49,258 nucleotides of DNA, from positions 1 through 49,258 of the IMG/VR virus record IMGVR_UViG_3300046328_000241; one strand, given 5' to 3'. The notes beneath the pieces are model-generated. The model searched no databases, was not told the DNA's origin, and saw only the letters and a program-made list of their open reading frames with translations. Made by a program: the position numbers and the translations under genes. Shown in pieces: positions 8,119-40,353 of the stretch. The stretch comes from a virus. Positions within the stretch are counted from its first letter, which is position 1. Every line of letters starts with the position of its first letter.

Positions 8119-8150
8119 ATAATCTTTACATATTTATGTTAAAAGATTAT
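8119..8150 (+). promoter_or_regulatory. Hairpin covering the start codon of the delta-60 gene
   Basis: A 9-bp perfect stem ATAATCTTT (8119-8127) / AAAGATTAT (8142-8150) includes the first two bases of the ATG at 8149. It follows an uninterrupted T tract after the upstream gene. It could restrain translation or act with the T tract as a boundary. This is a structural observation only. Confidence 0.3.
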
Positions 8151-10544: not shown

Positions 10545-10763
10545 ATGGAAAAAGAAATAGTAAATGAAATTATTGATTTTTTAAATAATAGAAAAGGATT
10601 TGATGATTGGTGGGGTGATATTGATGATGATATTAAAAACGAAATTAAACAAGAATTAGAGAATATTGTCAAATCTAAACAAATTAAGGTATTAAATAAT
10701 TTAGATGATAAAATTAAATCATGGGATGATGGTGGTTGTTCAACAGGTTTAAATGAAGATTAA
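10545..10763 (+). CDS. Small acidic hypothetical protein
   Basis: A 72-residue acidic protein, MEKEIVNEIIDFLNNRK followed by GFDDWWGDIDDDIKNEI, predicted mainly helical with a Trp-Trp pair in an acidic loop. It is the first of six consecutive tiny genes. No family is recognised. Confidence 0.5.
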   Translation: MEKEIVNEIIDFLNNRKGFDDWWGDIDDDIKNEIKQELENIVKSKQIKVLNNLDDKIKSWDDGGCSTGLNED

Positions 10764-10770
10764 TATAATT

Positions 10771-10944
10771 ATGGATAATAAACAAAAAGATAAAATATCT
10801 CTTGTTAGGGGAGAGTTGAAGTTAAAAGTATTATCAACAATTTTTACATTCGAATCTAAAGAAGTGTCTGAATATGGTAATATAACTGATGAGGATATTA
10901 TAAATGTACTATCATCAATAATAGCTAAAAGAACTGAGAAATAA
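10771..10944 (+). CDS. Small hypothetical protein
   Basis: ATG 10771 (MDNKQKDKISLVRGELKLK) is preferred over 10753, which would overlap the previous gene. The 57-residue product ends EDIINVLSSIIAKRTEK and looks helical. It resembles phage accessory proteins in size and charge only; no family is recognised. Confidence 0.45.
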   Translation: MDNKQKDKISLVRGELKLKVLSTIFTFESKEVSEYGNITDEDIINVLSSIIAKRTEK

Positions 10945-10948
10945 TACT

Positions 10949-11164
10949 ATGTTTAACATATTCAAATCCAAAGAAGATAAATTAAAATTGAAAATAAAAC
11001 AAGAAAATCTTGATTTATTGGATATTGACGAAGTAAATGATAAATATTATTTACAAAAATTATTGGATTGGCAAGAAGAATATGATTATTTGGATTGGAT
11101 AGAATTTAAAGATTATTGCAACAGTTATGATAATAATTTTTGTATTTGTTATGCTCGAAATTAA
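10949..11164 (+). CDS. Small hypothetical protein, charged N-terminus
   Basis: A 71-residue product with a charged helical N-terminal half (KSKEDKLKLKIKQENLDLL) and an aromatic, cysteine-containing C-terminus (NFCICYARN). It lies in the run of tiny genes, 4 nt after the previous one. Unknown function. Confidence 0.45.
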   Translation: MFNIFKSKEDKLKLKIKQENLDLLDIDEVNDKYYLQKLLDWQEEYDYLDWIEFKDYCNSYDNNFCICYARN

Positions 11165-11176
11165 AATATAATATAT

Positions 11177-11395
11177 ATGGACGATAGAGATTATGAAGCG
11201 ATGAACAAAAGAGCCAATTTTGATTGGGATAAATTTGCCATTGCATTAAGAGATAAATTTGGTAAATCTTTAATTAGTGAATCATTAATTAATGAAGATG
11301 GTGATGAAGATAACCCATATAATTGGTGGCTCGAAGATGTAAAAGTTTCCGATATTGTTGACTTTGTAATGAATCATCGACAAGATGGTAATTAA
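11177..11395 (+). CDS. Small acidic hypothetical protein
   Basis: A 72-residue product with FDWDKFAIALRDKFGKSL and an acidic patch INEDGDEDNPYNWWLED. It shares with the 10545 gene a Trp-Trp dipeptide next to Asp residues, but this is not enough to call homology. Unknown function. Confidence 0.45.
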   Translation: MDDRDYEAMNKRANFDWDKFAIALRDKFGKSLISESLINEDGDEDNPYNWWLEDVKVSDIVDFVMNHRQDGN

Positions 11396-11396
11396 T

Positions 11397-11600
11397 ATGG
11401 AAGATAAAAACATAAAAATAAAATTAACAGAATATGGTCATCATTGTGGTGATGGCTGTTGTTACAATTATGGAACTATTACATCTGTTAATGGTGTAGA
11501 ATTACCCTCCCATAATCAAGATGCTGAAACAATAGTTAAACAAATATTGGAACATTTAGGTTATAGTGTTGAGATTGAATACGATGAAGATATTGATTAA
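11397..11600 (+). CDS. Small Cys/His-containing hypothetical protein
   Basis: ATG 11397 (MEDKNIKIKLTEYG) is chosen over 11385, which overlaps the previous gene. The 67-residue product has HHCGDGCCYNYG, a cluster that could bind metal, and a Q-I-L-E-H-L-G-Y-S-V-E-I segment typical of small alpha/beta phage proteins. Its stop is immediately followed by the next ATG. Unknown function. Confidence 0.5.
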   Translation: MEDKNIKIKLTEYGHHCGDGCCYNYGTITSVNGVELPSHNQDAETIVKQILEHLGYSVEIEYDEDID

Positions 11601-11834
11601 ATGAAAACAAAACTAGAAATATTTATTAATAGGTTAGAAAAAATCAATATTAGATTGGATTTGTTCTCAAACTATCCTTGGATTTATATTAATAAAATAA
11701 ATGATAAGGTAGTAAAAGAAAAATATCAATCCGAACATGGATTTACAATAGCATATTATCCAATCCAAAAAGATCAAGAATTTAAGTTTACTGACTTAAA
11801 ACAAATATTTGAATTAATAAAAAAATATAAATAA
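11601..11834 (+). CDS. Small conserved-looking phage protein (NYPWIY motif)
   Basis: A 77-residue protein with FINRLEKINIRLDLFSNYPW, then HGFTIAYYPI, then FTDLKQIFELIKKY. I associate this order of motifs with a small uncharacterised protein found repeatedly in Bacteroidota phages, which supports the host inference. The association is from memory and needs a search. No biochemical role is known to me. Confidence 0.55.
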   Translation: MKTKLEIFINRLEKINIRLDLFSNYPWIYINKINDKVVKEKYQSEHGFTIAYYPIQKDQEFKFTDLKQIFELIKKYK

Positions 11835-16284: not shown

Positions 16285-16896
16285 ATGTTATCAAACCTAG
16301 CAAATATCATCTCAGATGATTCATTATTTAATTATAGTAATATCCCCTATATAAACTATTATAGTTCAACAGACACAATAATAGATACTAAATTACCAAC
16401 ACTAATAATTGGTTATAAACTAGCAAAACAAATATACAATTCTGGGATTGATATATTAAATAAGGTTGTTGCACCAAACCAAAAATATTGGACTTTTACA
16501 GCTGAGGAAAGAAATTTAGATTATATAAAAGATACCAAGCATTTTGTTGATAATGTAATAGGATATTATCAATCCAATCAGAAATATATCAATTATGATC
16601 CATTATTTGCAAACAGTAAATCAATATATGATTTTATTGATTATATAAAAAATAAAGAGATAAAATCATATAAGAATAAATATTCATTATATATAAAAAC
16701 TGAAGATACAATTTTTGGATTTGATATGAGAATAATAGATAAATACTATCCAAATAACAATTTAATAAATATTATATCAAACAAATCCAATTATTATCTT
16801 GATGATAATAATCTTATATTAAGCAGTTGTATAAAAAAATATGGAAATGAAATAAGTAATTGTAAAAAAATAATTGTTAATCTAATATCTGAATGA
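16285..16896 (+). CDS. Hypothetical protein, 203 residues
   Basis: An AT-rich phage-type gene after the island. The N-terminal region is MLSNLANIISDDSLFNYSNI; the middle has KLPTLIIGYKLAKQIYN, which looks like a strand-helix core, and a long KYWTFTAEERNLDYIKDTK segment. It is rich in Tyr, Asn and Ile with no transmembrane segment. I do not recognise it. Its stop overlaps the next start by 4 nt (ATGA). Confidence 0.6.
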   Translation: MLSNLANIISDDSLFNYSNIPYINYYSSTDTIIDTKLPTLIIGYKLAKQIYNSGIDILNKVVAPNQKYWTFTAEERNLDYIKDTKHFVDNVIGYYQSNQKYINYDPLFANSKSIYDFIDYIKNKEIKSYKNKYSLYIKTEDTIFGFDMRIIDKYYPNNNLINIISNKSNYYLDDNNLILSSCIKKYGNEISNCKKIIVNLISE

Positions 16897-17140
16897 AACA
16901 ACATATTATAAAAGACTATAAACTAAAAGTCCAACATGATTTTCTCGTACTAGAGGCGGTATTTATATCATCACAAATTCAAAATATTTGGATTCAATAT
17001 TAAATGAAATTGTTTTTAATAATTTCACAAAAGAAGAATATATTGAGATGTTATCAAATATGCGTGAAAATCCAAATGAACAGACTTCAAGTTATAAAAC
17101 GGCTATTAATGGTTTATTCGTTAACGTTTTAAAATTATAA
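16893..17140 (+). pseudogene. Frameshifted member of the CxYI(L)EI small-protein family
   Basis: An ATG at 16893 opens a frame that ends at 17003. A second frame, open from 16940 to the TAA at 17138, lacks an ATG before its conserved part but encodes SKYLDSILNEIVFNNFTKEE, which matches the family signature (CKYILEIHQLIVDNLTxxE) of the array at 25-28 kb. Joining the two frames near 16940 gives one protein of about 80 residues. Either a frameshift broke the gene or programmed slippage joins the halves. A sequencing error is also possible. Confidence 0.5.
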
Positions 17141-17141
17141 T

Positions 17142-17423
17142 ATGGTACTTAGAATTATTAAATGTAATAATATATTGTTAAAATCAATATCTGGGATTAT
17201 TCCTAGTGATATTTTAAGTCCAAATGGTAAATTTATTTATATTCAGTTATCAACTAATAGTTTATATTTAGATGAGATTTTACGGATGATTTTAAATAAT
17301 TTAACCAACGAAGAAAATTCGGATTTGATGGGGTGTATAAAAACATATAAGTTTATTAGCGAAAATAATCATTATCAAAAGAGATTACTACATGGTTATT
17401 ATTGTAAAATAATTGAATTGTAA
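17142..17423 (+). CDS. Divergent CxYI(L)EI-family small protein (93 aa)
   Basis: The middle of the protein, SLYLDEILRMILNNLTNEE, aligns with the family helix; the Cys is replaced by Ser. The N-terminal 45 residues (VLRIIKCNNILLKSISGII) are an extension not seen in the main array. The C-terminus (YQKRLLHGYYCKIIEL) carries the usual closing aromatic strand. Two nt separate it from the broken member upstream. Function unknown. Confidence 0.5.
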   Translation: MVLRIIKCNNILLKSISGIIPSDILSPNGKFIYIQLSTNSLYLDEILRMILNNLTNEENSDLMGCIKTYKFISENNHYQKRLLHGYYCKIIEL

Positions 17424-17434
17424 TATATTACCAG

Positions 17435-17659
17435 ATGATAAAAATAGTTAATAATTGCTCAAGTTATTTAAATCCAATCCTAAATCAGATTCAAGATTCG
17501 TTATTACCAATTGAAATATTTGATTATATTGGTTATGAAATTTATATGAAAATTGGAAAACAGTTGTTAAATGTAAATGGTGGTAAAATATATTTAGAAA
17601 CAGCTAGATATTATATAATAAATGATTTGATATATGTTAAATGCGTTTTAAATGAATAG
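17435..17659 (+). CDS. Divergent CxYI(L)EI-family small protein (74 aa)
   Basis: NNCSSYLNPILNQIQDSLLP fits the C-x-x-Y-[IL]-x-x-I-x-x-x-I pattern of the family, and the C-terminal half ends with alternating strands (ARYYIINDLIYVKCVLNE). It overlaps the next gene by 8 nt, as array members do. Function unknown. Confidence 0.45.
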   Translation: MIKIVNNCSSYLNPILNQIQDSLLPIEIFDYIGYEIYMKIGKQLLNVNGGKIYLETARYYIINDLIYVKCVLNE

Positions 17660-17846
17660 TTTAAATGTTGATATTAAATTTAAGTGCTGTAAACATGTTC
17701 AAGATATTATTATATTGATAGATAAAAACCTTTTAATAGATGAAAGATCAGATTGGTTTGATGTTACCAGAATCTATTATCGTGAAAAATTAGAAAATAA
17801 ATTCAATGTGATTGGAGATTTAATTTATTTGGAAATAACCGATTAA
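17652..17846 (+). CDS. Divergent CxYI(L)EI-family small protein (64 aa)
   Basis: FKCCKHVQDIIILIDKNLLI has the Cys-x-[YH]-[IV]-x-x-I-x-x-x-I spacing of the family, then a variable middle and a closing strand GDLIYLEITD. It is the last member of this cluster; a promoter-like CTATTTATA follows 21 nt after the stop. Confidence 0.45.
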   Translation: MNSLNVDIKFKCCKHVQDIIILIDKNLLIDERSDWFDVTRIYYREKLENKFNVIGDLIYLEITD

Positions 17847-22693: not shown

Positions 22694-23752
22694 ATGACAA
22701 CAGTACGTGGAGCAGTAAAAAAGAAAGAGTTTTCCCTTGGTGATTATAAGAAAACAAAGGGAATTGATAAAACAATGAGAAATAAGCCAGATAGGTGGAT
22801 ACCAGCATCAAAGGCATTTAAAGAGATAACTGGCTTACCAGGAGCGATTTATATGTCTGGATCGCACTTTATATTCGGCTATGAAAATTCTGGGAAAACG
22901 ACTTTAATCCTAGAAGCGGCTATATCAGCCCAGAAAATGAATATACTCCCAGTATTCTTAATGACCGAACAAAAACATAAATGGGATCATGCAAAGACGA
23001 TGGGTTTTGAAGTTAATGAGATTGTTGATGCAGATGGTGTTGTAAGCTATGATGGATTTTTTTTATATTATGATAGACATAATTTTAGTACAGTTGAAGA
23101 ACTTGCTAAAGTTATTCATGGTTTAATTGATGACCAAGAAGCTGGTAAATTACCATATGATTTATTGTTTCTCATTGATAGTTTTGGAAAATTAAACTGC
23201 GATAAGGGGGTAAAAAATAAGAACCAATTCAACCCTCAATGGATCAGTTCTTCCATTGCACACGAATTTGGAGCTAGTGTAATTCCAAGAATTAATATGA
23301 GTATTAGTGAAAAATCTCAATATACAAACACACTTGTTCAAATTATTCAACCTTGGACTGAACTACCAGATGTATATGGTGCTTTACCAAAGTTAACGCC
23401 AAAGGGTGGTAAATCATTACCACAAGATTCATCAATTGGATATAAATTTGGATCTAATACAAATAGTGGCACTTCAAGTATGAAGTTGAAAAAGAAGGGT
23501 CGTGAAATTGTTTGGGGTACTAGAACCAAAGTTGAGGTTGTGAAAAATCACATCACAATGTTATCGACTAAAGGTAAATTAATCGCAACACCACATGGTT
23601 TTATTCTTGAAGATGAAGAAAAGGAGTATCTAGCAAAACATGCTGAATATTTTCTAGCACAATTAAATACAGATAGTTTTGATGATGTGGAATTTTTTGA
23701 AGAAGATAATTCAGATGATGAACCAACCACAATAGAAGATATACTTGATTAA
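22694..23752 (+). CDS. uvsX: UvsX/RecA-like recombinase
   Basis: The 352-residue RecA-superfamily ATPase has the Walker A motif GYENSGKTT (62-70), close to the GPESSGKT of RecA, and a Walker B strand DLLFLIDSFGKL (156-167). A TEQKHKWDHAKTMGF segment lies at the position of the catalytic Glu (residue 92 in MTEQ). A C-terminal acidic tail (FDDVEFFEEDNSDDE) is present. It should form filaments on ssDNA and drive strand exchange in recombination-dependent replication. It lies just after gp32 and its companion and is closed by a terminator. UvsX is the best symbol given the T4-type context. Confidence 0.85.
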   Translation: MTTVRGAVKKKEFSLGDYKKTKGIDKTMRNKPDRWIPASKAFKEITGLPGAIYMSGSHFIFGYENSGKTTLILEAAISAQKMNILPVFLMTEQKHKWDHAKTMGFEVNEIVDADGVVSYDGFFLYYDRHNFSTVEELAKVIHGLIDDQEAGKLPYDLLFLIDSFGKLNCDKGVKNKNQFNPQWISSSIAHEFGASVIPRINMSISEKSQYTNTLVQIIQPWTELPDVYGALPKLTPKGGKSLPQDSSIGYKFGSNTNSGTSSMKLKKKGREIVWGTRTKVEVVKNHITMLSTKGKLIATPHGFILEDEEKEYLAKHAEYFLAQLNTDSFDDVEFFEEDNSDDEPTTIEDILD

Positions 23753-23757
23753 AATTA

Positions 23758-23800
23758 ATATATTGGATTTGACCAAACCAATCAAATCCAATATATTTTT
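23758..23800 (+). terminator. Intrinsic terminator after uvsX
   Basis: Perfect 15-bp stem (23758-23772 with 23782-23796) with a 9-nt loop and a run of five T. It isolates uvsX from the homing endonuclease behind it. Confidence 0.8.
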
Positions 23801-23810
23801 CACAATTTAA

Positions 23811-25031
23811 ATGGAAGATAATATAATATACAAAATTTATGGATTATATGCTTTAGATGATGAATCTAAAATAATTAGATATGTTGGATATACAAAAAGA
23901 ACGATTAAAAAAAGATTATCATCACATATTCACCAATCCAAAGAACGTGATACACATAAAGATCGATGGATAAGAAAAAATAATCGTAATATTGATGTTA
24001 TATTAATTGAAGATAATATAAATACGTATGAATTGGTTTTAGAACGTGAAATATATTGGATTGATTATTATAAGAAAATTGGGAATGATTTAGTAAATAG
24101 TACTGCTGGTGGTGATGGCACTAAAGGTAGATCACCATCAATGGCTGAACGTGAGCGTTCTAGAAAGTTAAATTTAGGTAAAAAATTATCTGAAGAACAT
24201 AAAGCTAAAATAGGTAAGTCACATAAAGGTAAAATACTATCATTAGAACATAAGCAAAAATTAAAAGATAAAAAACAAAATGTTAGTGATGAAACCAAAC
24301 AGAAAATGTCGATTATGGCCGTTAGGAGATTTTTGAGAGAGAAAAATATATTTGTTGATGATTTATTAAATGATGAAATAGTTCACATAAAACAATTAAT
24401 AATTGAATATGATAATTTAATAAAACAATTGGTAAAAACCCCAAATGATGATATCGAGTTTTATAAAAATAAGAATTTTGAAAATAAATTAAATTATGAA
24501 TTAAAAAAATCCGAAGAGTATAAATTAGGAATTTTAACAAATAATGCAATAGCAATAAAAATAAAAGAAGATAAATTAAATATAATCAGAGAGAGAGAAT
24601 TAAAAAAGAATTTTTTAATTCAAGAAAAAATTAATAAACAGCAATTAATTAAAACCGAAAGAGAATTAAAGAAACAAAAAGAATATGAATCCAGACAAAA
24701 ATTAATTGATTCGGGTGATCTATATCAAATGGTTAATTCACTTGGTAAATTGATTTGGGTTAGAAAAACGTCTGAACAAACCAAACAAAAACTTAGAGAA
24801 GCTAATCTTGGTAAGAAATATAGTGAAGAAACAAAAAGAAAACATTCTGAAACCAATTTTAGGATTAGAAATGGTAAAAAGGGTGTAAAATTAACCGAAG
24901 GTGATATTAGAGAAATTAGAAGATTATGCGATAATGAGAAAACAACTAAAGAATTGACAGAAATATATAATATGGATTATTCAACAATCAGAAAAATAGT
25001 CCTAAGAAAATTATGGTCAGACATTAAATAA
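23811..25031 (+). CDS. GIY-YIG homing endonuclease with NUMOD3 repeats
   Basis: The N-terminal catalytic domain shows GLYAL (GIY position, 11-15) and RYVGYTKRTIKKRLSSH (YIG position 24-26 and the downstream Arg/His), with the catalytic Glu in VLEREIYWI. Next come NUMOD3 DNA-binding repeats (KLSEEHKAKIGKSHKGK and LSLEHKQKLKDKK), a long charged coil, a further repeat GKKYSEETKRKHSE and a C-terminal helix-turn-helix (NMDYSTIRKIVLRKLW). It is a free-standing mobile endonuclease of 406 residues, typical of T4-like genomes. It sits between uvsX and the paralogue array, which may share its history. The gene looks intact. Confidence 0.85.
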   Translation: MEDNIIYKIYGLYALDDESKIIRYVGYTKRTIKKRLSSHIHQSKERDTHKDRWIRKNNRNIDVILIEDNINTYELVLEREIYWIDYYKKIGNDLVNSTAGGDGTKGRSPSMAERERSRKLNLGKKLSEEHKAKIGKSHKGKILSLEHKQKLKDKKQNVSDETKQKMSIMAVRRFLREKNIFVDDLLNDEIVHIKQLIIEYDNLIKQLVKTPNDDIEFYKNKNFENKLNYELKKSEEYKLGILTNNAIAIKIKEDKLNIIRERELKKNFLIQEKINKQQLIKTERELKKQKEYESRQKLIDSGDLYQMVNSLGKLIWVRKTSEQTKQKLREANLGKKYSEETKRKHSETNFRIRNGKKGVKLTEGDIREIRRLCDNEKTTKELTEIYNMDYSTIRKIVLRKLWSDIK

Positions 25032-25032
25032 C

Positions 25033-25263
25033 ATGCAATCAAATATAATTTGGCTCAACACAATACATTATGAATGGTATTCACAGCTTGTTCCAACAAA
25101 CATTGAATCATGTGATTATGTGAAAGATATTTTAACTGTAATTATAAATGATAACTTTGAATATAAAGAACTCCAACAATTATCTTATTTTGAAAAGATT
25201 AATTATTCTAGGGGGTGTAGATTTATAAATAAATCATTAAATTTCTATATAAATGCAATATAA
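25033..25263 (+). CDS. Array member 1, CxYI family (76 aa)
   Basis: Starts 1 nt after the homing endonuclease stop. The family helix appears late, as SCDYVKDILTVIINDNFEYK, after a 26-residue N-terminal extension. The variable part has a second Cys (SRGCRF). It overlaps member 2 by 11 nt. It is one of the more divergent members. Function unknown. Confidence 0.55.
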   Translation: MQSNIIWLNTIHYEWYSQLVPTNIESCDYVKDILTVIINDNFEYKELQQLSYFEKINYSRGCRFINKSLNFYINAI

Positions 25264-25474
25264 CATAGCTTGTAAATATATATTGGATATACATCAATTA
25301 ATAATTAATAATCTAACAGTTGAAGAAATTGATTTGTTTGAAGATGATTATCAACCCGATGGTAAATATAAATATTATCCATTTTTTACAATTTCTAAAA
25401 TATTGTATAGTGAACATACCTATTATGCTGGAATGCAGACAACATATATATTTAAATTATATGATATAGAATGA
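25253..25474 (+). CDS. Array member 2, CxYI family (73 aa)
   Basis: MQYNIACKYILDIHQLIINN is a canonical N-terminus followed by LTVEEI. The variable part (EDDYQPDGKYKYYPFF) ends in a hydrophobic strand TYIFKLYDIE. It shares its first five residues with member 14, the other end of the array. The stop overlaps member 3's ATG (GAATGA). Confidence 0.65.
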   Translation: MQYNIACKYILDIHQLIINNLTVEEIDLFEDDYQPDGKYKYYPFFTISKILYSEHTYYAGMQTTYIFKLYDIE

Positions 25475-25671
25475 AGAAGCCTTGTAAATATATATTAGAA
25501 ATTCATCAATTAATTGTTGATAATCTAATAGATATTGAAATATTTGGATTGGATGAAACACTGGATAAATATTATTTATCCTCAAGTGAATTACCATCAA
25601 TCCATATAAGCAATATTGAATATATATGGAAATTTAATAATGGCATCTATTTAGGTGTTAAACAAAAATAA
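25471..25671 (+). CDS. Array member 3, CxYI family (66 aa)
   Basis: The N-terminus CKYILEIHQLIVDNL is the family consensus. The 44 nt from 25481 are almost identical to those of members 10 and 14. After the helix the sequence is unrelated to other members (FGLDETLDKYYLSSSELPSI), with a closing strand YIWKFNNGIYLGV. Confidence 0.65.
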   Translation: MKKPCKYILEIHQLIVDNLIDIEIFGLDETLDKYYLSSSELPSIHISNIEYIWKFNNGIYLGVKQK

Positions 25672-25675
25672 GAAC

Positions 25676-25873
25676 ATGAAGCCTTGTAAATACATAATAG
25701 ACATACATTCAAATATCGTTACTAATCATTTCATTGATGAAGAATTTATTGGCATTAAAAATAAATATCATTGGGTAGAAGATCAAATTATTTGCGATTA
25801 TATTTTTGATTGTGGAATAATATATAGATATAATTGGACAACGAATGAATTAACATTAACAACATATGAATAA
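25676..25873 (+). CDS. Array member 4, CxYI family (65 aa)
   Basis: The ATG at 25676 is chosen so the protein begins MKPCKYIIDIHSNIVTNHF like its relatives; an upstream GTG at 25655 would overlap member 3. The C-terminal half has the strand pair QIICDYIFDCGIIYRYNW. The next ATG lies inside its last codons (8-nt overlap). Confidence 0.6.
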   Translation: MKPCKYIIDIHSNIVTNHFIDEEFIGIKNKYHWVEDQIICDYIFDCGIIYRYNWTTNELTLTTYE

Positions 25874-26087
25874 AGTTTGTAATCACATATTAATAATACA
25901 CTCTACAATTGTAAAAACATTTTTGCAAGATGATTTTAAGGAATTAAAATGCAACAGTGAAACATATTACGATATGAACATAAAATCAATTGTCGTTAAT
26001 TATTGGTTTAAATCATTGGATATAAGATATAAATATTATTACAACAGCGAATTAGTTTCACTAAGATCACCAGATATTATAAAATGA
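25866..26087 (+). CDS. Array member 5, CxYI family (73 aa)
   Basis: MNKVCNHILIIHSTIVKTFL retains Cys-x-[HY]-I-L-x-I-H; the Asn-Leu after the helix is lost. The closing strands SIVVNYWFKSLDIRYKYYYN follow the family's aromatic pattern. It overlaps member 6 by 4 nt. Confidence 0.6.
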   Translation: MNKVCNHILIIHSTIVKTFLQDDFKELKCNSETYYDMNIKSIVVNYWFKSLDIRYKYYYNSELVSLRSPDIIK

Positions 26088-26293
26088 TAAACAACATAGA
26101 GAAAACAATATATATGAAACATTCTCATAATTCAAATCTAAGATTGCACATGGAATCTGAATGTTGTTTTTATGTAAATGAAATTTTGCCAAATATATTA
26201 AAAAATATTACATTTATGGAATTGTCTGATTTTACATATTATAAAAATCATGCATATAAAAGATATATGAATAAATTAATTTATATTTATTAG
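26084..26293 (+). CDS. Array member 6, divergent CxYI family (69 aa)
   Basis: A 27-residue extension precedes CCFYVNEILPNILKNITFME, which keeps the Cys-x-Tyr-[IV]-x-x-I-x-x-x-I-x-x-N-[IL]-T spacing. The C-terminal part is short (YKRYMNKLIYIY). It ends with TAG 2 nt before member 7. Confidence 0.55.
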   Translation: MINNIEKTIYMKHSHNSNLRLHMESECCFYVNEILPNILKNITFMELSDFTYYKNHAYKRYMNKLIYIY

Positions 26294-26295
26294 TT

Positions 26296-26493
26296 ATGAA
26301 ACTTAAACCATCTTGTGATTATATATTAGAAATTCATGGTATTATTGTTAAAAATATAACAACAGAGGAATTATTTGATTTTGTTGACATAATATCACCA
26401 ATCCTATATAGTCCAAATGATTTTGGATTAATTAAAAAATATTATTTTATGAAAATTGGATTAGTTTATGATAGAGAATTTGATTATGGTTAA
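26296..26493 (+). CDS. Array member 7, CxYI family (65 aa)
   Basis: SCDYILEIHGIIVKNITTEE is a good match. The variable middle contains IISPILYSPNDFG, partly echoed in member 8 (AHSPIINNPY), and the closing strand is YYFMKIGLVYDREFDYG. Members 7 and 8 look like a recent duplicate pair. Confidence 0.6.
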   Translation: MKLKPSCDYILEIHGIIVKNITTEELFDFVDIISPILYSPNDFGLIKKYYFMKIGLVYDREFDYG

Positions 26494-26674
26494 ACCATGT
26501 AATCATATATTAGAAATACATCAGTTAATTATTAATACATTATTAGATGATGAAATAAATGAATTAGCGGATGCACATTCACCAATCATAAATAATCCAT
26601 ATTTAAAAATGAATTATTGTTATTTCTTTTTCACAAAGTTTTATATCAAATACAGTAGAGAATTTATATTTTAA
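26486..26674 (+). CDS. Array member 8, CxYI family (62 aa)
   Basis: The ATG at 26486 (MVKPCNHILEIHQLIINTLL) is chosen over an in-frame ATG at 26468, since it aligns with family N-termini and overlaps member 7 by only 8 nt. The C-terminal strand YCYFFFTKFYIKYSREFIF resembles that of member 7. Confidence 0.6.
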   Translation: MVKPCNHILEIHQLIINTLLDDEINELADAHSPIINNPYLKMNYCYFFFTKFYIKYSREFIF

Positions 26675-26676
26675 CA

Positions 26677-26862
26677 ATGCAATATCAGGATAGACCATCG
26701 CAATATATTAAAGAAATTCATGATATGATTTATGGAAATCTAACCAAAGATGAATTATATGATTGGATAAAATTATTAGAAACTGATCCAAGTTATTATG
26801 TACTGCCAATGTTTCAAAATGCAATTGATATTTATATTTTAAAATGTGATCATTTAGTATAA
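26677..26862 (+). CDS. Array member 9, CxYI family (61 aa)
   Basis: MQYQDRPSQYIKEIHDMIYG aligns with the family, but the conserved Cys is replaced by Ser, and NLTKDELYDW follows. The C-terminal part is short (NAIDIYILKCDHLV). It is the smallest member. Confidence 0.55.
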   Translation: MQYQDRPSQYIKEIHDMIYGNLTKDELYDWIKLLETDPSYYVLPMFQNAIDIYILKCDHLV

Positions 26863-26865
26863 CCA

Positions 26866-27066
26866 ATGAAACCAGCTTGTAAATATATATTAGAAATTCA
26901 TCAATTGATTGTTGATAATTTATTGATTATTGATGAAGTATTACCACTATTTGATGGTAATTATATTGGCGACTATAAATATTTAACATCAATTAGTTCA
27001 ATCAAATATATAATATTAATTATTCCTTCAAGGAAATATATAATATACCAAACGAATGAATATTAA
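26866..27066 (+). CDS. Array member 10, CxYI family (66 aa)
   Basis: ACKYILEIHQLIVDNLL is consensus and the 44 nt from 26876 nearly match members 3 and 14. The variable half (IIDEVLPLFDGNYIGDYKYL) and the strand IKYIILIIPSRKYIIYQT are its own. It overlaps member 11 by 11 nt. Confidence 0.65.
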   Translation: MKPACKYILEIHQLIVDNLLIIDEVLPLFDGNYIGDYKYLTSISSIKYIILIIPSRKYIIYQTNEY

Positions 27067-27262
27067 ATCAGCTTGTAATTATATATTAGAAATACATCAA
27101 CAAATTATTGATAATATAACTATTGATGAGGTTAAGGAGATATGTACGATATTGAATGATGATATTCAGGTTACTAATTTTATATTAAAAGCCTATTACA
27201 TCGAGATTTATCCAATCCAATATAGATTTAGTTGGAGAACGTTTAACTATAAACAACAATAA
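27056..27262 (+). CDS. Array member 11, CxYI family (68 aa)
   Basis: ACNYILEIHQQIIDNITIDE is consensus. The C-terminal strands FILKAYYIEIYPIQYRFSW share YPIQY(R/K) with member 13, a sign that C-terminal pieces can also be shared or exchanged. Confidence 0.6.
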   Translation: MNIKSACNYILEIHQQIIDNITIDEVKEICTILNDDIQVTNFILKAYYIEIYPIQYRFSWRTFNYKQQ

Positions 27263-27266
27263 AATA

Positions 27267-27488
27267 ATGAGTAAATCTAGATTAATATACAAGTATTATT
27301 ATTATGAGCATGAAACATGTTGTAATTATATAATTAAAATTGTTGATACTATTTTTGATAATATGAATTATGCTGAAGTTAATGAACTTGTTCAAGAACG
27401 TAGATTATTAATGGATTGGGACATAACAAAAGAGAATGTATTTTTGATTTGTTATTTGCGTTATATAGAAACAACATATCCGTTTTAA
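27267..27488 (+). CDS. Array member 12, divergent CxYI family (73 aa)
   Basis: A 17-residue extension precedes CCNYIIKIVDTIFDNMNYAE. The His of the consensus is Val here. The C-terminal strand NVFLICYLRYIETTYPF closes the protein. One nt separates it from member 13. Confidence 0.55.
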   Translation: MSKSRLIYKYYYYEHETCCNYIIKIVDTIFDNMNYAEVNELVQERRLLMDWDITKENVFLICYLRYIETTYPF

Positions 27489-27489
27489 T

Positions 27490-27705
27490 ATGAAAGTTGC
27501 TTGTGACTACATATTGGAAATACATCAATTAATTGTCGATAATTTAACATCTGGCGAGATAGTATTATTTATGTCAAGATTGGAAAAGATAAATGCTATT
27601 CAAAATCGGATATTATTATATCCAATCCAATATAAATATTTTTCACTAATTTCAGTGACAAATCAAAAAATTAAGATTGAATATGTTAAGACATTAATAT
27701 ATTAA
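27490..27705 (+). CDS. Array member 13, CxYI family (71 aa)
   Basis: ACDYILEIHQLIVDNLTSGE is consensus, followed by a variable helix (VLFMSRLEKINAIQ) and strands RILLYPIQYKYFSLIS and KIKIEYVKTLIY. Five nt separate it from member 14. Confidence 0.6.
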   Translation: MKVACDYILEIHQLIVDNLTSGEIVLFMSRLEKINAIQNRILLYPIQYKYFSLISVTNQKIKIEYVKTLIY

Positions 27706-27710
27706 ACAAA

Positions 27711-28028
27711 ATGCAATATAACATACCTTGTAAACATATATTAGAAATTCATCAATTAATTGTTGATAATTTAACTGGTGATGAAATTTATAAAATAGCT
27801 GATGATGGTATTGAAATTCGTTTAGGGCAAAAACATTCATCAATATCATTAACAATAAATAATATATATTATATTCCAGATAGTGTGTTTTGTAATTATG
27901 CAAAACAATTTAATATTAAAACCATAACAAATGAAGAAGAACAAAACAAAAACATTGCTGGTGGATGCCACATATTTATTAAAAAGGTCATTAACTGGTT
28001 CAAAAAACACATACGTTGGTGGAGATAA
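27711..28028 (+). CDS. Array member 14, CxYI family, extended (105 aa)
   Basis: MQYNIPCKHILEIHQLIVDN and LTGDEI are consensus. At 105 residues it is the longest member, because its last 32 or so codons run on in a different frame through the first 98 nt of the exonuclease gene, giving a basic, Trp-rich tail (KKVINWFKKHIRWWR). The family-like portion ends near residue 73, so the tail is probably a read-on after loss of the original stop. Confidence 0.6.
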   Translation: MQYNIPCKHILEIHQLIVDNLTGDEIYKIADDGIEIRLGQKHSSISLTINNIYYIPDSVFCNYAKQFNIKTITNEEEQNKNIAGGCHIFIKKVINWFKKHIRWWR

Positions 28029-28992
28029 TAATGTTGGTATTTATACATTCATAACTACATTAAGAAAATTAATTAATGAAACCAAAGTAAATAGGGTTGT
28101 ATTATGTTGGGATGGTGAGAATTCTGGGAAGCGCAGATATTTGATTTCTAGCGACTACAAAGCCAATCGAAAGGGAAAGAGTTGGTATAATAAAATTCAG
28201 TTAACTGAGGCTGAAATTAAGTACCTAGAAAGGGATAAACAATCAGAGCTATATCAAAAAGTTAGAATACAAAACTATTGTGAGGAATTATTCATTAGAC
28301 AAGTTGAGATTGACGAAGTTGAAGCTGATGATATGATTGCACAATACGTAATAAATTTTTCAGAGATAGAAGATATTATTGTATACACAAATGATAAAGA
28401 TTATATTCAATTATTAGATTATAACATATCTGTATATCTTAATTTTATTGGTTTAATAATTGATAAAAATGATTTCTTCATGCATTTTCCATATCATTAT
28501 AAAAATTCATTAACCATTAAAATAATGTGTGGTGATAGTGGTGATAATGTAAAGGGAATTAAAGGATTTGCTGAACCAACATTCATGTCTTTATTTCCAG
28601 ATGCAAAAGATAAGCATTTAATGGTAAAGGATGTTATTAGATTGGCCAAACAAATCCAAAAAGATAGAATTGATAATAAGCAAAAACCATTAAAGGTTAT
28701 TGAGAATATAATAAACGGAAAAGATATTTATATTTTAAATAAACAATTGGTGGATCTATCATCACCATTATTAAATGAAGATGAGAAGAATATTATATTA
28801 GATTTAGCATTGCCATTAGATTCTGAAAATAGAGGTTCAAAAAATTTAATTAGATTAATGAATGAAGATAAATTTTTATCAAATTACAATGGAAATAGAT
28901 CTGATTTCGCTTCATATGTTGAGCCATTTTATATTATAATCTCAAGTGAGAAAAAATTATTTGAAGAATATTCAAAAAATATAAAATATTAA
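27931..28992 (+). CDS. 5'-3' exonuclease (T4 RNase H/FEN-like)
   Basis: The 353-residue protein has the PIN/FEN nuclease acid residues in order: LLVDATYLL with Asp12, LCWDGENSGKRRYL, the cluster EIDEVEADDMIAQY, YTNDKDYIQLL, and the helix-3-turn region MCGDSGDNVKGIKGF. The size fits T4 RNase H (about 305 residues) with a C-terminal extension. It should remove RNA primers and flaps behind the fork. Its ATG lies inside array member 14, out of frame, so the two are translationally linked. The next gene follows 64 nt later. Family is secure; I leave the symbol empty because T4 rnh orthology is not proven. Confidence 0.8.
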   Translation: MKKNKTKTLLVDATYLLKRSLTGSKNTYVGGDNNVGIYTFITTLRKLINETKVNRVVLCWDGENSGKRRYLISSDYKANRKGKSWYNKIQLTEAEIKYLERDKQSELYQKVRIQNYCEELFIRQVEIDEVEADDMIAQYVINFSEIEDIIVYTNDKDYIQLLDYNISVYLNFIGLIIDKNDFFMHFPYHYKNSLTIKIMCGDSGDNVKGIKGFAEPTFMSLFPDAKDKHLMVKDVIRLAKQIQKDRIDNKQKPLKVIENIINGKDIYILNKQLVDLSSPLLNEDEKNIILDLALPLDSENRGSKNLIRLMNEDKFLSNYNGNRSDFASYVEPFYIIISSEKKLFEEYSKNIKY

Positions 28993-29782: not shown

Positions 29783-31264
29783 GTGGACAACAAAAAAGAC
29801 ATCGGATATTTAGGCTCGTCATTTCAATTAAAATCAATATGGCAATTGCTTACAAACAATAAGTTTGCATCAAAAGTTATTGATTTATTGGAATCGAGCT
29901 ATTATGATGACTCTAATTACAAACAACTGGTTATCTTTATTAAAGACTATTATCAAAAACATGAAGTATTTGCTTCGATTAAAAATGATTCAATAGTTGA
30001 ATACATTAATCATAAGTTTGGACAAAGAGATTTAAGCGAATCCGAAAAAATTCAAAAGGAAACATTATTAAAGATAATCGATAAGATTAGAGTTTATGAC
30101 GAAAGAGTTTCCAGTGGTGATCTAAATGATGATAGTACAGTTGTTATAAAACAGATATTAGAATTTGTTAAACAACAAGTATATTATAATTTAGGTATTA
30201 AGATTATATCTGATGTGGAATTAGGTTCGTTCGGTGAAAAAACGATTGATTCTATTGATGACATGTCAAAAACTATCACCAAACTATCAGATAATTATGA
30301 TGAAGGTGAGAATGTATTTGATGATATCGATAGTGTGCTTGATGATGATTTTAGAGAACCAGTAGCAACTGGAATAGGTAAATTGGATTTGCTAATGGGT
30401 GGTGGTTTAGGTAAGGGTGAGATTGGAATGATATTAGCACCATTAGGATCTGGAAAGACAACATTATTAACAATGTTTGCTCAACATGCCCATAGAATGG
30501 GTAAAAACGTGTTGCAAATCTTCTTTGAAGACACCACTAAACAAATCAAAAGAAAGCATTTTACCAAAATATCTGGAATAAAGTTATCTGAAATCGAGCA
30601 CAATAAAGAGTTTGTTAAAGAAACTGTTCAAAACTATTACAAAAATTGTGAATCTAAATTAGTGCTTAAAAAATTCTCTCAAGATGGAACAACAATTCCA
30701 AAAATGAGAAGATGGATATTGGATTATCAAAAAACAAATAACATTAAATTCGATATTATATTATTGGATTATATAGATGTTGTTGAATCACATAGAAAAA
30801 ATGTCAATGGTGATACATTATCGGATGAACTACACGTATTTAGATGTTTCGAAGATTTGATTAGTGAGTTAGATATTCCAGGTTGGTCAGCTATTCAAGG
30901 CAATAGAGGCTCAATTGCTGCTGAAATCGTTGATACTGACAAGATGGGTGGAAACATCAAAAAAGCACAAAAAACACACTTCTTGATGTCGGTTGCAAGA
31001 CCATTAGCCCTAAAGAAATTAAAAAAGGCAAAGTTCTCAATACTTAAATCAAGATTTGGTGGTGATGGTGAAATATTTGATGACTCAACATTTGACCATG
31101 ATAAAATGTTTGTTGAATTCGATAAAAAACCAGAAGAACCAGAAGAAGATAGACGTACTTATAATAAAAAAAGTACAATAAAAAATCTGGAAAAAATGGT
31201 CAATGATAATAATGACGAAAATCCATTTGATGTTAAATTAATTGCTGAATTGTTGGGTGAATAA
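29783..31264 (+). CDS. DnaB/gp41-like replicative helicase
   Basis: The start is GTG 29783 (VDNKKDIGYLGSSF). The 493-residue protein has an N-terminal helical domain and a RecA-type core with Walker A at 219-227 (APLGSGKTT), a catalytic-Glu strand FFEDT (248-252), Walker B KFDIILLDYID (322-332) and a Ser/Gln sensor region GWSAIQGNRG. The order fits the DnaB/T4 gp41 superfamily SF4. It should form the hexameric 5'-3' helicase at the fork. A C-terminal charged tail (KPEEPEEDRRTYNKKST) may bind primase or a loader. Replicative helicase is secure; orthology to gp41 is likely. Confidence 0.85.
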   Translation: MDNKKDIGYLGSSFQLKSIWQLLTNNKFASKVIDLLESSYYDDSNYKQLVIFIKDYYQKHEVFASIKNDSIVEYINHKFGQRDLSESEKIQKETLLKIIDKIRVYDERVSSGDLNDDSTVVIKQILEFVKQQVYYNLGIKIISDVELGSFGEKTIDSIDDMSKTITKLSDNYDEGENVFDDIDSVLDDDFREPVATGIGKLDLLMGGGLGKGEIGMILAPLGSGKTTLLTMFAQHAHRMGKNVLQIFFEDTTKQIKRKHFTKISGIKLSEIEHNKEFVKETVQNYYKNCESKLVLKKFSQDGTTIPKMRRWILDYQKTNNIKFDIILLDYIDVVESHRKNVNGDTLSDELHVFRCFEDLISELDIPGWSAIQGNRGSIAAEIVDTDKMGGNIKKAQKTHFLMSVARPLALKKLKKAKFSILKSRFGGDGEIFDDSTFDHDKMFVEFDKKPEEPEEDRRTYNKKSTIKNLEKMVNDNNDENPFDVKLIAELLGE

Positions 31265-36390: not shown

Positions 36391-39300
36391 ATGGGTGGTA
36401 GAAAAATAACCATTAAGCAAATTGATGCGACATTAATTCCAGATGGAAAAATTGTAAAGGCTAGTGGTGGTACATTGGTATTTACAAGTGAAACAACTGG
36501 TGTTGTTGATGGTGACAAAGGTGATATAATAATATCAAATACTGGTCAGACTTATGTTATTGATCAAAAAGCTGTTACTTATGATAAGATTCAAGATACA
36601 TTAAACACTAATATTCTAATAGGTAGATATGACCCTGCTGGTGGTGTATTACAAGAAATTATGATTGGTACTGGTTTGTTAATAACTGGTGACACATTGG
36701 TGTCAACTGCTGCATTTTTTGGTAGTGGTGGAACATCTGGTGAAATAAATACCGCAAGTAATTTAGGAACTGGTATTGGTTTATATAGTACAAAAGTTGG
36801 AAGTGATTTAAGATTTAAATCAATAATGGCTGGCCCAAATATAATTATATCTGGTAATAGCTCAATGATTATAATTTCTGGCTCACCTAGTGGAGAAATT
36901 AATACTGCATCAAATGTTGGTACTGGTGTTGAATTGTTTAAACAAAAAAATGGATTTGATTTAGAATTTAAAACAATATCAGGTACTCCAAATCAAATAA
37001 CTGTTATAAGCGGAAGTAATTTGATTAGATTGGCTTTGCCACAGGATATTGCTATTACATCAAGTCCAACGTTTTTAAATGTAAATGCTGATAATATAGT
37101 TACCACAGGAAGTAATCAAACAATAAGTGGTGTAAAAACATTTGTTAATAATATTATTGCCAGTGCATTAACATTAACAGTAACAACTGGAAAGCCACCG
37201 TTAGTAGTAAGTTCATCAACAATGGTTGTGAATCTAAATGCGGATTTAATTGATAGTATTCAAGGCGTGGATTTAGTTACTGGTGGTACAAATTTTGGTG
37301 GAGGTATAAGTCCTTTTACAACTAAAGTTGCAAAAGATTTATTATTTAGAGGTCTAACTGGTAGAACGAATCAAATAATCATATCGGCTAGTACTTCGTT
37401 AATTACATTTAGTTTACCACAAGATATTGGTGGTACATCTGTACCACAATTTGGTGGATTAAATATTTCAAATAATATAGTATCAAGTGCAATAACAGTA
37501 ACGAATAGTGCTAGGTTGTTATATATAACTGGTACAACGAATCAAACATTAGTATTAACACCGAATGGTGTTATATCAGCAACGACAATTGCCATTATTG
37601 CAAATACGAATATAATAACTGGTGGTACAAATTTTGGTGGAGGTATTGCTGTATATTCAGGTAATAATGTTAATAATTTATTCTTTAGAACATTAACAGG
37701 TAGAACGAATCAAATAATTATTTCAGCTAGTACTAATTTGATTACATTTGCTTTACCACAAGATATTGGTGGCACATCTGTACCACAATTTGGTGGATTA
37801 AATATAACAAATAATATAACAACTAGTGCAATAACAATTACAAATAGTGCAAGGTTATTATATATTACTGGTACAACGAATCAAACATTAGTCATAACAC
37901 CGAATGGTATCATATCGGCAACGACAATTATTGATAATGGTGAAGTAAATACTGCTAGTAATATAGGTGGTGGTGTTGGCGTGTTTTCTGATAAATCAGG
38001 TGTTGATTTAAGATTTAAAACTTTCAGCGGAACATCAAATCAAGTAATTATATCAGCTAGTACTGATATGGTTATATTTAGATTACCACAAGATATAGCA
38101 ACTACATCAAGTCCTACATTTAGGAATATAACAACAAGTGCTATAACAGTAACAAATAGTGCAAGATTATTACACATTACTGGCACAACTGATCAAATAC
38201 TGACTTTAACACCAAATGGCGTAGTATCAGCAACAACAATTGCCAATTATTATAATGAAATATTTCCAGAAGATGGTGCATCATCGAATGTAACAGTAAC
38301 TGGTTGGACAAGGGTAGCAATGCGAACATCATCAAGTGGTAGAGGTCAATCTATTGTAACAATCTATTCTAGGGGTGGTAATTCAGCAACAGCATCAGTT
38401 CAATTATATTGGGGAACTAGTAGTAGTTCATCATCTGCTGAATTAAGAATTGTTGGAGGGCATTTAAGAGTACAAGGTCTTGAAGATGATGGTGTAACAC
38501 CAGTATTTAGAAGTGTACTAGAAAATACAGTTACATATCTAGAAATGGAAGTAATTTCAGTACCAAGAAGTTATTGGGCAAGAGTTAATAATGTTGGTTC
38601 AACATTATATCCAACAACACCACTAAACTTTGAATTATCACCATTAACTGGTACAACAGTTGCAGAGATACCATATACTGCATTATATGTAAAAGACTTT
38701 CAAGTTAATTTAGATGGTTCAGTATCATCAAGGAATTTTATTACAGCTAGTGGATTTACATCAACAGTACCAATTGGTACTGCACCTTTAGTTGTAAATT
38801 CATCTACATTGGTAAATAATTTAAATGTTCAATATTTTGATGGATTAGAAAGTAGTGATTATGTTAACGTTAGTAGTCCACAATCAATAACAGGTGTTAA
38901 AACATTTAATAATGATATTATTGTAAATAAAAATATTATAACAAGTGCTATAACAGTAACGAATAGTGCAAGGTTATTATACATTACTGGTAATACCAAT
39001 TTAGCATTAATATTAACACCGAATGGTGTTATATCGGCAACGACAATAAATACAAATAATAATATTGGTACAATCACTGGTGGAACTAATTTAGGTAGTA
39101 ATTTTAACATATTTAGCGGTAATAGTGGTAATAATCTATTTTTTAGAACAATTATTGGCGGTGGTAATATATCAATATCGGGTAATAATACAACAATTAT
39201 TATATCTGGTTCATCTGGTGCTAGTGGTGAAGTAAATACAGCTAGTAATATAGGTAATGGTGTTGATATATTTGCAAATAAATCAGGTGATGATTTAAGA

Positions 39301-40353
39301 TTTAGAACATTAAGTGGAACACCTAATCAAATAAATATATTTAGTGGTACATCATTATTAACTTTTGGTTTACCACAAGACATTGCAACAACATCAAGCC
39401 CAACATTTAATAATTTAAATATTACAAATAATATTGTATCAAGTGCAATAACGATAACAAATAGTGCAAGGTTATTATATATTACTGGTACAACGAATCA
39501 AACATTGGTATTAACACCGAATGGTGTTATATCAGCAACTACAATTGCCATTATTGCGAATACGAATATAATAACTGGTGGTACAAATTTTGGTGGAGGT
39601 ATTGCTGTATATTCAGGTAATAATGTTAATAATTTATTCTTTAGAACATTAACTGGTAGAACAAATCAAATAATCATATCAGCTAGTACTGATTTGATTA
39701 CATTTAGCTTACCACAAGATATTGGTGGTACTTCATCGGTCAATTTTTCAAATTTAAATATTAGTAATAATATTATAACAAATAATATTATTAGTGGTGG
39801 CTCTTTAAGTATAAATAGATTAGTTGTTGCATCAGCATTTACATCAACAGTTAGTACTGGAACACAACCAATAAGTGTACAATCAAGAACATTGGTTACG
39901 AATCTAAATGCTAGTTTATTAGTTGGTCAGAGTGACACATTTTATGTTAACACAGGTACAAGTCAGACAATAACTGGTATAAAGACATTTGTTTCGGATG
40001 TTGTTGCAATTAGAATGATAACAGCAAGTGCATTAACACTTACAGTAAGAACTGGAATGCCACCATTGGTAGTGAGTTCATCAACAATGGTTGTGAATCT
40101 AAATGCTGATATGATTGATAATATTCAAGGTAATCAATTAATAACAGGTGGAACTAATCTAGGTGGTGGTGTACAAATATTTTCTGGAAATACACCATAT
40201 AATTTAAATTTTAGAACGGTATTTGGTGATCCAACAATACAAATAAGTGCTAATACAACAACAGCAACAATAATGTATAAACCAATCATTATCGTAACTG
40301 GCGATTCACCGACTGGCGTATATCCAGATGGGGCGATTTGGATACAAATCTAA
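36391..40353 (+). CDS. Long repetitive tail fibre protein (1320 aa)
   Basis: The protein begins MGGRKITIKQIDATLIPDGK, a likely attachment segment, and then consists of repeated modules. Module a is GTNFGGGI...LFRTLTGRTNQ, IIISAST-x-LITF and LPQDIGGTS. Module b is VTNSARLLYITGTTNQ then LVLTPNGVISATT. A third is GTGVELFKQKNGFDLEFKT-like. At residues about 630-790 a non-repetitive domain with Trp-, Ser- and Gly-rich stretches (YWGTSSSSSSAEL, VPRSYWARVNNVG) interrupts the repeats and may bind receptor. It ends YPDGAIWIQI. No chaperone or peptidase signature is visible. Beta-helical trimeric fibre is the likely fold; function is inferred from repeats and context. Confidence 0.8.
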   Translation: MGGRKITIKQIDATLIPDGKIVKASGGTLVFTSETTGVVDGDKGDIIISNTGQTYVIDQKAVTYDKIQDTLNTNILIGRYDPAGGVLQEIMIGTGLLITGDTLVSTAAFFGSGGTSGEINTASNLGTGIGLYSTKVGSDLRFKSIMAGPNIIISGNSSMIIISGSPSGEINTASNVGTGVELFKQKNGFDLEFKTISGTPNQITVISGSNLIRLALPQDIAITSSPTFLNVNADNIVTTGSNQTISGVKTFVNNIIASALTLTVTTGKPPLVVSSSTMVVNLNADLIDSIQGVDLVTGGTNFGGGISPFTTKVAKDLLFRGLTGRTNQIIISASTSLITFSLPQDIGGTSVPQFGGLNISNNIVSSAITVTNSARLLYITGTTNQTLVLTPNGVISATTIAIIANTNIITGGTNFGGGIAVYSGNNVNNLFFRTLTGRTNQIIISASTNLITFALPQDIGGTSVPQFGGLNITNNITTSAITITNSARLLYITGTTNQTLVITPNGIISATTIIDNGEVNTASNIGGGVGVFSDKSGVDLRFKTFSGTSNQVIISASTDMVIFRLPQDIATTSSPTFRNITTSAITVTNSARLLHITGTTDQILTLTPNGVVSATTIANYYNEIFPEDGASSNVTVTGWTRVAMRTSSSGRGQSIVTIYSRGGNSATASVQLYWGTSSSSSSAELRIVGGHLRVQGLEDDGVTPVFRSVLENTVTYLEMEVISVPRSYWARVNNVGSTLYPTTPLNFELSPLTGTTVAEIPYTALYVKDFQVNLDGSVSSRNFITASGFTSTVPIGTAPLVVNSSTLVNNLNVQYFDGLESSDYVNVSSPQSITGVKTFNNDIIVNKNIITSAITVTNSARLLYITGNTNLALILTPNGVISATTINTNNNIGTITGGTNLGSNFNIFSGNSGNNLFFRTIIGGGNISISGNNTTIIISGSSGASGEVNTASNIGNGVDIFANKSGDDLRFRTLSGTPNQINIFSGTSLLTFGLPQDIATTSSPTFNNLNITNNIVSSAITITNSARLLYITGTTNQTLVLTPNGVISATTIAIIANTNIITGGTNFGGGIAVYSGNNVNNLFFRTLTGRTNQIIISASTDLITFSLPQDIGGTSSVNFSNLNISNNIITNNIISGGSLSINRLVVASAFTSTVSTGTQPISVQSRTLVTNLNASLLVGQSDTFYVNTGTSQTITGIKTFVSDVVAIRMITASALTLTVRTGMPPLVVSSSTMVVNLNADMIDNIQGNQLITGGTNLGGGVQIFSGNTPYNLNFRTVFGDPTIQISANTTTATIMYKPIIIVTGDSPTGVYPDGAIWIQI
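37472..37760 (+). repeat. Direct repeat copy 1 within the fibre gene
   Basis: About 290 nt that recur with few changes at 39428-39716 (offset 1956 nt, a multiple of three). Both copies encode modules b and a of the fibre. Shorter, more diverged copies lie between them (near 37840 and 38140). Confidence 0.75.
39428..39716 (+). repeat. Direct repeat copy 2 within the fibre gene
   Basis: Partner of 37472-37760. Changes are mostly single-base and third-position. In-frame recombination between the two would remove or add 652 residues. Confidence 0.75.

Follow-up and report, generated by a model that had tools for sequence, protein, structure and literature searches.

A tandem array of fourteen small paralogous genes with a shared core and divergent tails at the recA-exonuclease junction of a virus record

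The array and its conserved core

The IMG/VR virus record IMGVR_UViG_3300046328_000241 was analysed over positions 1-49,258, a stretch of 49,258 bases that is called the window throughout. Between positions 25033 and 28028, about 3 kb are filled by 14 tandem plus-strand open reading frames (ORFs) that share a core of about 22 residues with the consensus C-x-[YH]-I-L-E-I-H-x-x-I-x-x-N-[LI]-T-x-x-E. A first-pass annotation had described these 14 consecutive paralogues with one core, and all of them were found. Forward ATG-initiated ORFs of at least 58 residues numbered 14 in positions 25031-28030, compared with a mean of 0.26 and a maximum of 2 in 200 dinucleotide shuffles. A 27-residue core profile, built from most of the members that it recovers, identified 14/14 members with E values from 1e-15 to 6e-8, and a back-translated core pattern occurred nine times versus none in 100 shuffles.

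The core had been reported for every member, which was confirmed at the level of the profile but not of each residue. In eleven members (class A) it starts at residues 4-8, close to the N-terminus, and in one of them, member 9, Ser replaces the Cys. The core His is missing from members 1, 6 and 12 (class B), which have N-terminal extensions of 18-27 residues, with the core starting at residues 19-28. Member lengths lie in a narrow range of 61-76 residues, with the exception of member 14. The upper limit of 105 residues given at first is reached because member 14 overlaps the exonuclease gene for 98 nucleotides in another frame; this gene truly starts at 27931, in agreement with the starts of its homologues. 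The tight packing described earlier was reproduced, but its one longer overlap disappeared with ATG starts at 25676 and 26486 for members 4 and 8, and junctions now range from -11 to +5 nucleotides. No Shine-Dalgarno sequence was evident before the start codons at the array junctions inspected; phages of Bacteroidota likewise lack an evident one, which is not a host assignment for the window. Most array members are acidic. A reading as membrane proteins was dropped because values of the grand average of hydropathicity were near zero.

No significant profile match to the family was obtained in Pfam, PHROGs or PDB sequences, and tblastn with member 10 against 50,697 phage records found nothing. 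A core pattern scan of IMG/VR gave 0 strict and 8 loose hits, and a pattern scan of 84,980 genomes gave 43 hits; none looked like a family member when the 8 were read in frame and the 43 were scored with the core profile. An alignment-based scan with the core yielded no confirmed relative. When 25 whole records of related or similar viruses, among them the 265, 365 and 371 kb contigs and a 484 kb phage, were searched with profiles, nothing beyond weak partial matches of 10-15 residues turned up, and the 265-kb relative (G001) has no comparable array of small ORFs. No relatives came from scans that used the recA and helicase sequences of the window by themselves, as the peptides selected for them are not conserved; an alignment-based recA scan did recover relatives. 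In the window, the profile found the core in no ORF outside the family. To judge from these searches, the array is a new orphan protein family, and gene number varies among relatives as the first-pass annotation had asked (14 here, none found in the relatives).

Core against tail

Each member had been read as a constant module joined to an unusually variable one, and the contrast between core and tail DNA bears this out. Pairwise nucleotide identity in class A, which is 0.84 and 0.75 in the core, has dropped to 0.34 within about 60 nucleotides of the Cys codon, with a background of 0.32. In gapped alignments, tails reached a mean z of 0.39 for DNA and 0.29 for protein, compared with 0.24 and 0.00 for unrelated small ORFs of the window. 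On average the tails are thus unalignable, as claimed, but the neighbours 7 and 8, alone among the members, are plainly homologous in this part as well. Tails are rich in Tyr (13.9% vs 4.2% in other proteins), core proteins are mostly 30-70% identical, and no signal of block duplication along the array was detected in a Mantel test.

The core appears to be kept by purifying selection. In class A cores, the proportion of nonsynonymous differences (0.21) is below that of synonymous differences (0.47), differences fall on the three codon positions as 182/89/244, and the other two forward frames are closed by stops in all ten class A cores tested. The tails are coding too; in members 1-13, no stop interrupts the tails over about 480 codons, for which the probability without selection is about 1e-22 at the local base composition.

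Synonymous divergence in the core was 0.49, compared with 0.73 +- 0.07 at saturation as drawn under the array's own codon usage, and 0/200 draws reached the observed value. Simulated whole-gene duplicates kept a tail z of about 19 with 20% of tail sites randomised and of about 2.7 with 65%. Members 3, 10 and 14 have core DNA that is 95-98% identical with 0-1 synonymous differences; their tail z values are 0.5, 1.5 and 3.0. Since the copies resemble one another more in their core DNA, also at synonymous sites, than in the unalignable tails, simple neutral drift of whole genes, which had been named as the reading that would count against diversification, is disfavoured with moderate strength, and fast or mosaic evolution of the tails is favoured. 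With moderate confidence, either the tails outpace the synonymous sites of the core, or the cores have been homogenised, or the tails have been replaced.

Predicted structure

Two members were modelled by AlphaFold2 with a 17-member paralogue alignment. The model of member 13 (predicted local distance difference test, pLDDT, 72.9) contains helices at residues 6-17 and 21-37 and strands at 46-56 and 59-69, and that of member 2 (pLDDT 65.7) a helix at 8-19, a short helix at 23-27 and three strands. These models suggest a helix-helix-beta-hairpin architecture, in which N-[LI]-T-x-x-E may serve as turn and capping box for the second helix. The Tyr-rich tails are consistent with aromatic strands. 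The variable part has diverged in sequence as first described, but at low to moderate confidence it probably keeps one architecture, a second helix followed by a beta-hairpin. Fold searches with the array models by Foldseek and VIA-align gave no match with E <0.001 and nothing significant.

The insertion between recA and the exonuclease gene

Together with a GIY-YIG homing endonuclease gene lying directly upstream with a 1-nucleotide gap, the array fills an insertion of about 4.2 kb between recA and the exonuclease gene. Among 79 related loci, the distance between these two genes is <=128 nucleotides in 64 and 453-1907 nucleotides in 15, and in a closer clade it is <=151 nucleotides in 35/43 loci; the two sets overlap in part and some rows are the same contig. 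Inserts at this junction differ in kind. By eye, a GIY-YIG-like ORF was read in locus L208, a fragment of one in L189 and an HNH-type ORF in L111, and L009 holds a phosphoesterase-like ORF. Six further loci (L107-L110, L112 and L163) carry tandem genes with the constant N-terminus MDNFDLKKYLVENKVTTNSRM, a sharp DNA boundary after it and unrelated bodies of up to 300 residues. These inserts of differing kinds indicate that, in a large phage clade, homing endonucleases and accessory genes have repeatedly been inserted at this junction (window 23753-27930).

The constant peptide MDNFDLKKYLVENKVTTNSRM (MDNF peptide) is possibly a capsid-targeting sequence family in the relatives. Its genes are often preceded by a conserved leader and a terminator-like stretch (for example L108:11140-12838). 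The arrays of these genes resemble the window array in their position at the recA-exonuclease junction, tandem arrangement, constant N-terminus with a sharp DNA boundary and unrelated bodies. They differ in a non-homologous constant peptide, larger bodies and, in several copies, the leader with its terminator-like stretch; hhalign found no match between the array core and the MDNF peptide (probability 0.3% local, 0.1% global).

A second small cluster and the surrounding genes

The array had been taken as the whole extent of the family, which did not hold, as a second cluster of three or four diverged members had been missed at 16940-17846 (Table 1). Two of its ORFs (17652-17846 and 17142-17423) match the core profile though absent from its building set. 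In the probable frame-broken member, the shared residues lie in a frame that differs from that of the upstream ATG. The cluster sits between two genes that are adjacent, with a tight junction, in relatives.

Table 1. Members of the array family and neighbouring genes in the window
Feature	Coordinates	Strand	Evidence and remarks
Array member 1, class B	25033..25263	+	core profile E 1e-9; 26-residue N-terminal extension
Array member 2, class A	25253..25474	+	core profile
Array member 3, class A	25471..25671	+	core profile; core 98% nucleotide-identical to members 10 and 14
Array member 4, class A	25676..25873	+	core profile; ATG 25676 start preferred over GTG 25655
Array member 5, class A	25866..26087	+	core profile
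Array member 6, class B	26084..26293	+	core profile
Array member 7, class A	26296..26493	+	core profile; tail homologous to member 8
Array member 8, class A	26486..26674	+	core profile; ATG start 26486 (or 26468)
Array member 9, Ser in place of core Cys	26677..26862	+	core profile
Array member 10, class A	26866..27066	+	core profile
Array member 11, class A	27056..27262	+	core profile
Array member 12, class B	27267..27488	+	core profile
Array member 13, class A	27490..27705	+	core profile
Array member 14, class A	27711..28028	+	core profile; last ~32 residues overlap exonuclease gene out of frame
Probable frame-broken member	16893..17140 (approximate)	+	residues IYI..TNSxYLDxIL..I..NN.TxEE shared with ORF 17142; read by eye
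Diverged member	17142..17423	+	core profile E 1.6e-3
Probable diverged member	17435..17659	+	profile only E 4.5; position, length, alignment
Diverged member	17652..17846	+	core profile E 1.4e-4
recA/UvsX-like recombinase	22694..23752	+	RecA E 2.4e-6; UvsX-like PHROG 97 E 1.9e-8; left border of insertion
GIY-YIG / NUMOD3 homing endonuclease	23811..25031	+	PHROG 314 E 6.7e-22; NUMOD3 E 8e-4, just under Pfam cutoff
5'-3' exonuclease	27931..28992	+	45-54% identical homologues in related virus contigs; right border of insertion
DnaB-like helicase	29783-31264

The window is AT-rich (GC 0.23-0.30) and holds no tRNA genes. Its left part carries sugar-metabolism genes (HAD, epimerase, glycosyltransferase, DegT aminotransferase) followed by many small ORFs, and further right lies a replication block of UvsX/RecA-like recombinase, homing endonuclease, array, 5'-3' exonuclease, DnaB-like helicase and ribonucleotide reductase subunits. 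Flavobacterium phage immuto, in which the homologue of the window exonuclease is annotated as a 5'-3' exonuclease, has the annotated order ssb-recA-exonuclease-DnaB-ribonucleotide reductase, as in the window; the order recA, exonuclease-like gene, helicase is also present in Microcystis phage Mel-JY01. Since the 265, 365 and 371 kb contigs are among its nearest relatives by exonuclease and recA, the window probably stems from a jumbo-type phage, of which it would be a fragment.

Further features were observed in passing. Six successive ORFs of 63-77 residues at 10545-11834 are paralogous neither to one another nor to the array, a 366-residue protein at 8149-9249 is built from a repeat (GDFTTYSGVTKNRIVRL...GTVDSTFQIGTGFN) present in about seven copies, and a 1320-residue ORF at 36391-40353 has a DUF1081 match, with several similar reverse-frame segments that suggest internal repeats. 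In the 265-kb relative, the DnaB-like helicase (L009:11691-13937) shows an apparent intein-like insertion at the Walker A motif (GLGTGK, AQPLTAKVLTPNGW...VTHN, TTML).

Interpretation and alternatives

The best explanation, tentatively held and at somewhat less than an even chance, is that the array encodes a repertoire of small accessory proteins, specific to this lineage and associated with a homing endonuclease, that are active in host interaction or anti-defence and share a helical handle. In a jumbo-type tailed phage, an accessory island would have been inserted between recA and the exonuclease gene, with or beside the GIY-YIG homing endonuclease, and duplication would then have expanded it to 14 small-protein genes. 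Each protein would consist of the conserved N-terminal helix, the helix-capping turn N-[LI]-T-x-x-E and a fast-diversifying second helix with beta-hairpin. Purifying selection, probably aided by recombination or gene conversion between copies, would hold the conserved part, and the tails would change faster than the synonymous sites of the core by selection or recombinational replacement. The most likely use would be a host-interaction repertoire for anti-defence or host takeover, expressed along with the replication module. Within this repertoire, the common helix may fold against the tail, pair with other copies or dock on a common partner, while the hairpin would face differing host targets.

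Several points weigh against this explanation. The family is carried by one record only among the searchable data, and the confidence of the array models is modest (pLDDT 66-73). Because the core is short, each pair offers 14-15 comparable codons with about 5-7 synonymous sites; the case made from synonymous divergence therefore depends on pooled data, and the claim on core and tail rates is held at moderate confidence. The closest pairs of cores were chosen by similarity, adjacent copies are no more alike than distant ones (Mantel r ~0), and copies are far from near-identical, with no recent dosage amplification visible.

A variant with a rather low probability makes the core itself the recombination handle; cores of about 50 nucleotides would be exchanged or converted and tails replaced or fast-changing, giving a combinatorial binder repertoire on a helical adaptor at a homing-endonuclease hotspot, with no retroelement. 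In a test for a diversity-generating retroelement, no reverse transcriptase was found among the window proteins scanned, which covered part of the ORFs of a contig that is itself a fragment.

The layout was first thought to be without a described parallel. The family is indeed new, but the layout is known from the T4 internal proteins and from the non-homologous arrays of relatives at the same site. T4 Ip1, Ip2 and Ip3 have similar targeting peptides on different bodies, and each inhibits a different GmrSD enzyme (PMC12373910, PMC9026906). The T4 internal proteins are the closest tested precedent for the use proposed for the array, and SegB is the closest one for its growth. IPI, IPII and IPIII are, like the array, small accessory genes with a constant N-terminal peptide and divergent bodies (PMC9026906), and it might be supposed that the array proteins are packaged in the virion in the same manner, with the core as capsid-targeting signal and the tails as ejected effectors. 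The tandem MDNFDLKKYLVENKVTTNSRM genes at the same junction in relatives speak for this, as do two genes of that type just upstream of the terminase gene in Flavobacterium phage immuto. However, the core lies away from the extreme N-terminus in members 1, 6 and 12, occurs in no other window ORF and is unlike the MDNF peptide, and no sequence relation to the T4 proteins was seen. The prohead protease of T4, gp21, cleaves at (L/I)-x-E. No such site was seen after the core in the alignments inspected, where the residue two before Glu varies and Ile/Leu/Val follows. The array further differs in its position in the replication module and its 14 copies, and its members are mostly acidic whereas the T4 proteins are basic. 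As the core does not act as a cleaved propeptide at the terminus of every member, the array does not appear to belong to the T4 internal-protein family, and packaging of this kind is considered unlikely.

The conserved, amphipathic-looking helix, the tight operon-like packing with overlapping genes and the similar predicted architecture of two members would also fit paralogous subunits of one hetero-oligomeric assembly, with the core helix as common interface and tails that diverged without a host target. This is likewise improbable, as 14 subunits with unalignable tails would be unusual and the family is absent from the syntenic replication modules of relatives, where it is thus dispensable. 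Slightly more doubtful is the view that the genes are selfish or decaying passengers of the homing-endonuclease insertion, with tails that have no selected function. The array adjoins a GIY-YIG endonuclease at a recurrent homing site, and one member of the second cluster is apparently frame-broken, but neutral decay would have interrupted the 14 array ORFs, every one of which is open, the core is under apparent purifying selection and, member 14 apart, lengths are narrow.

Dosage amplification of a single anti-defence gene has a precedent in T-even phages, where the GIY-YIG endonuclease SegB promotes amplification of anti-defence genes, as in T6 (PMC13096335). The window array agrees with this in that a free-standing GIY-YIG endonuclease (ORF 23811-25031) adjoins tandemly repeated small genes. 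However, SegB arrays are fresh, near-identical copies, and no near-identical repeat units are found here, where the core proteins differ as described and the tails do not align. Because its copies are too diverged, the array is not a dosage array, and this origin is very improbable, being already contradicted by the divergence unless it lies far back in time. Small T4 anti-defence genes such as tifA recombine and amplify under selection (PMC9391042); like the array members, tifA-type genes are small accessory phage genes, and their copy number responds to host defence. Compared by description, tifA is unlike the array in not being a diversified multi-member family in one array.

Taken together, the evolutionary part of the first-pass interpretation is supported with moderate strength, and its functional part is plausible. 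The array represents a new orphan family with an extreme split between constant and variable parts, located in a replication-module junction at which homing endonucleases and other genes with a constant head and a variable body have been inserted again and again in related phages. This pattern would be expected if a set of proteins had diversified against host targets that change. Should the tails prove to be target-specific inhibitors, each array would amount to a natural library of counter-defence proteins of phages, ready for use, and more could be sought at the recA-exonuclease junction.

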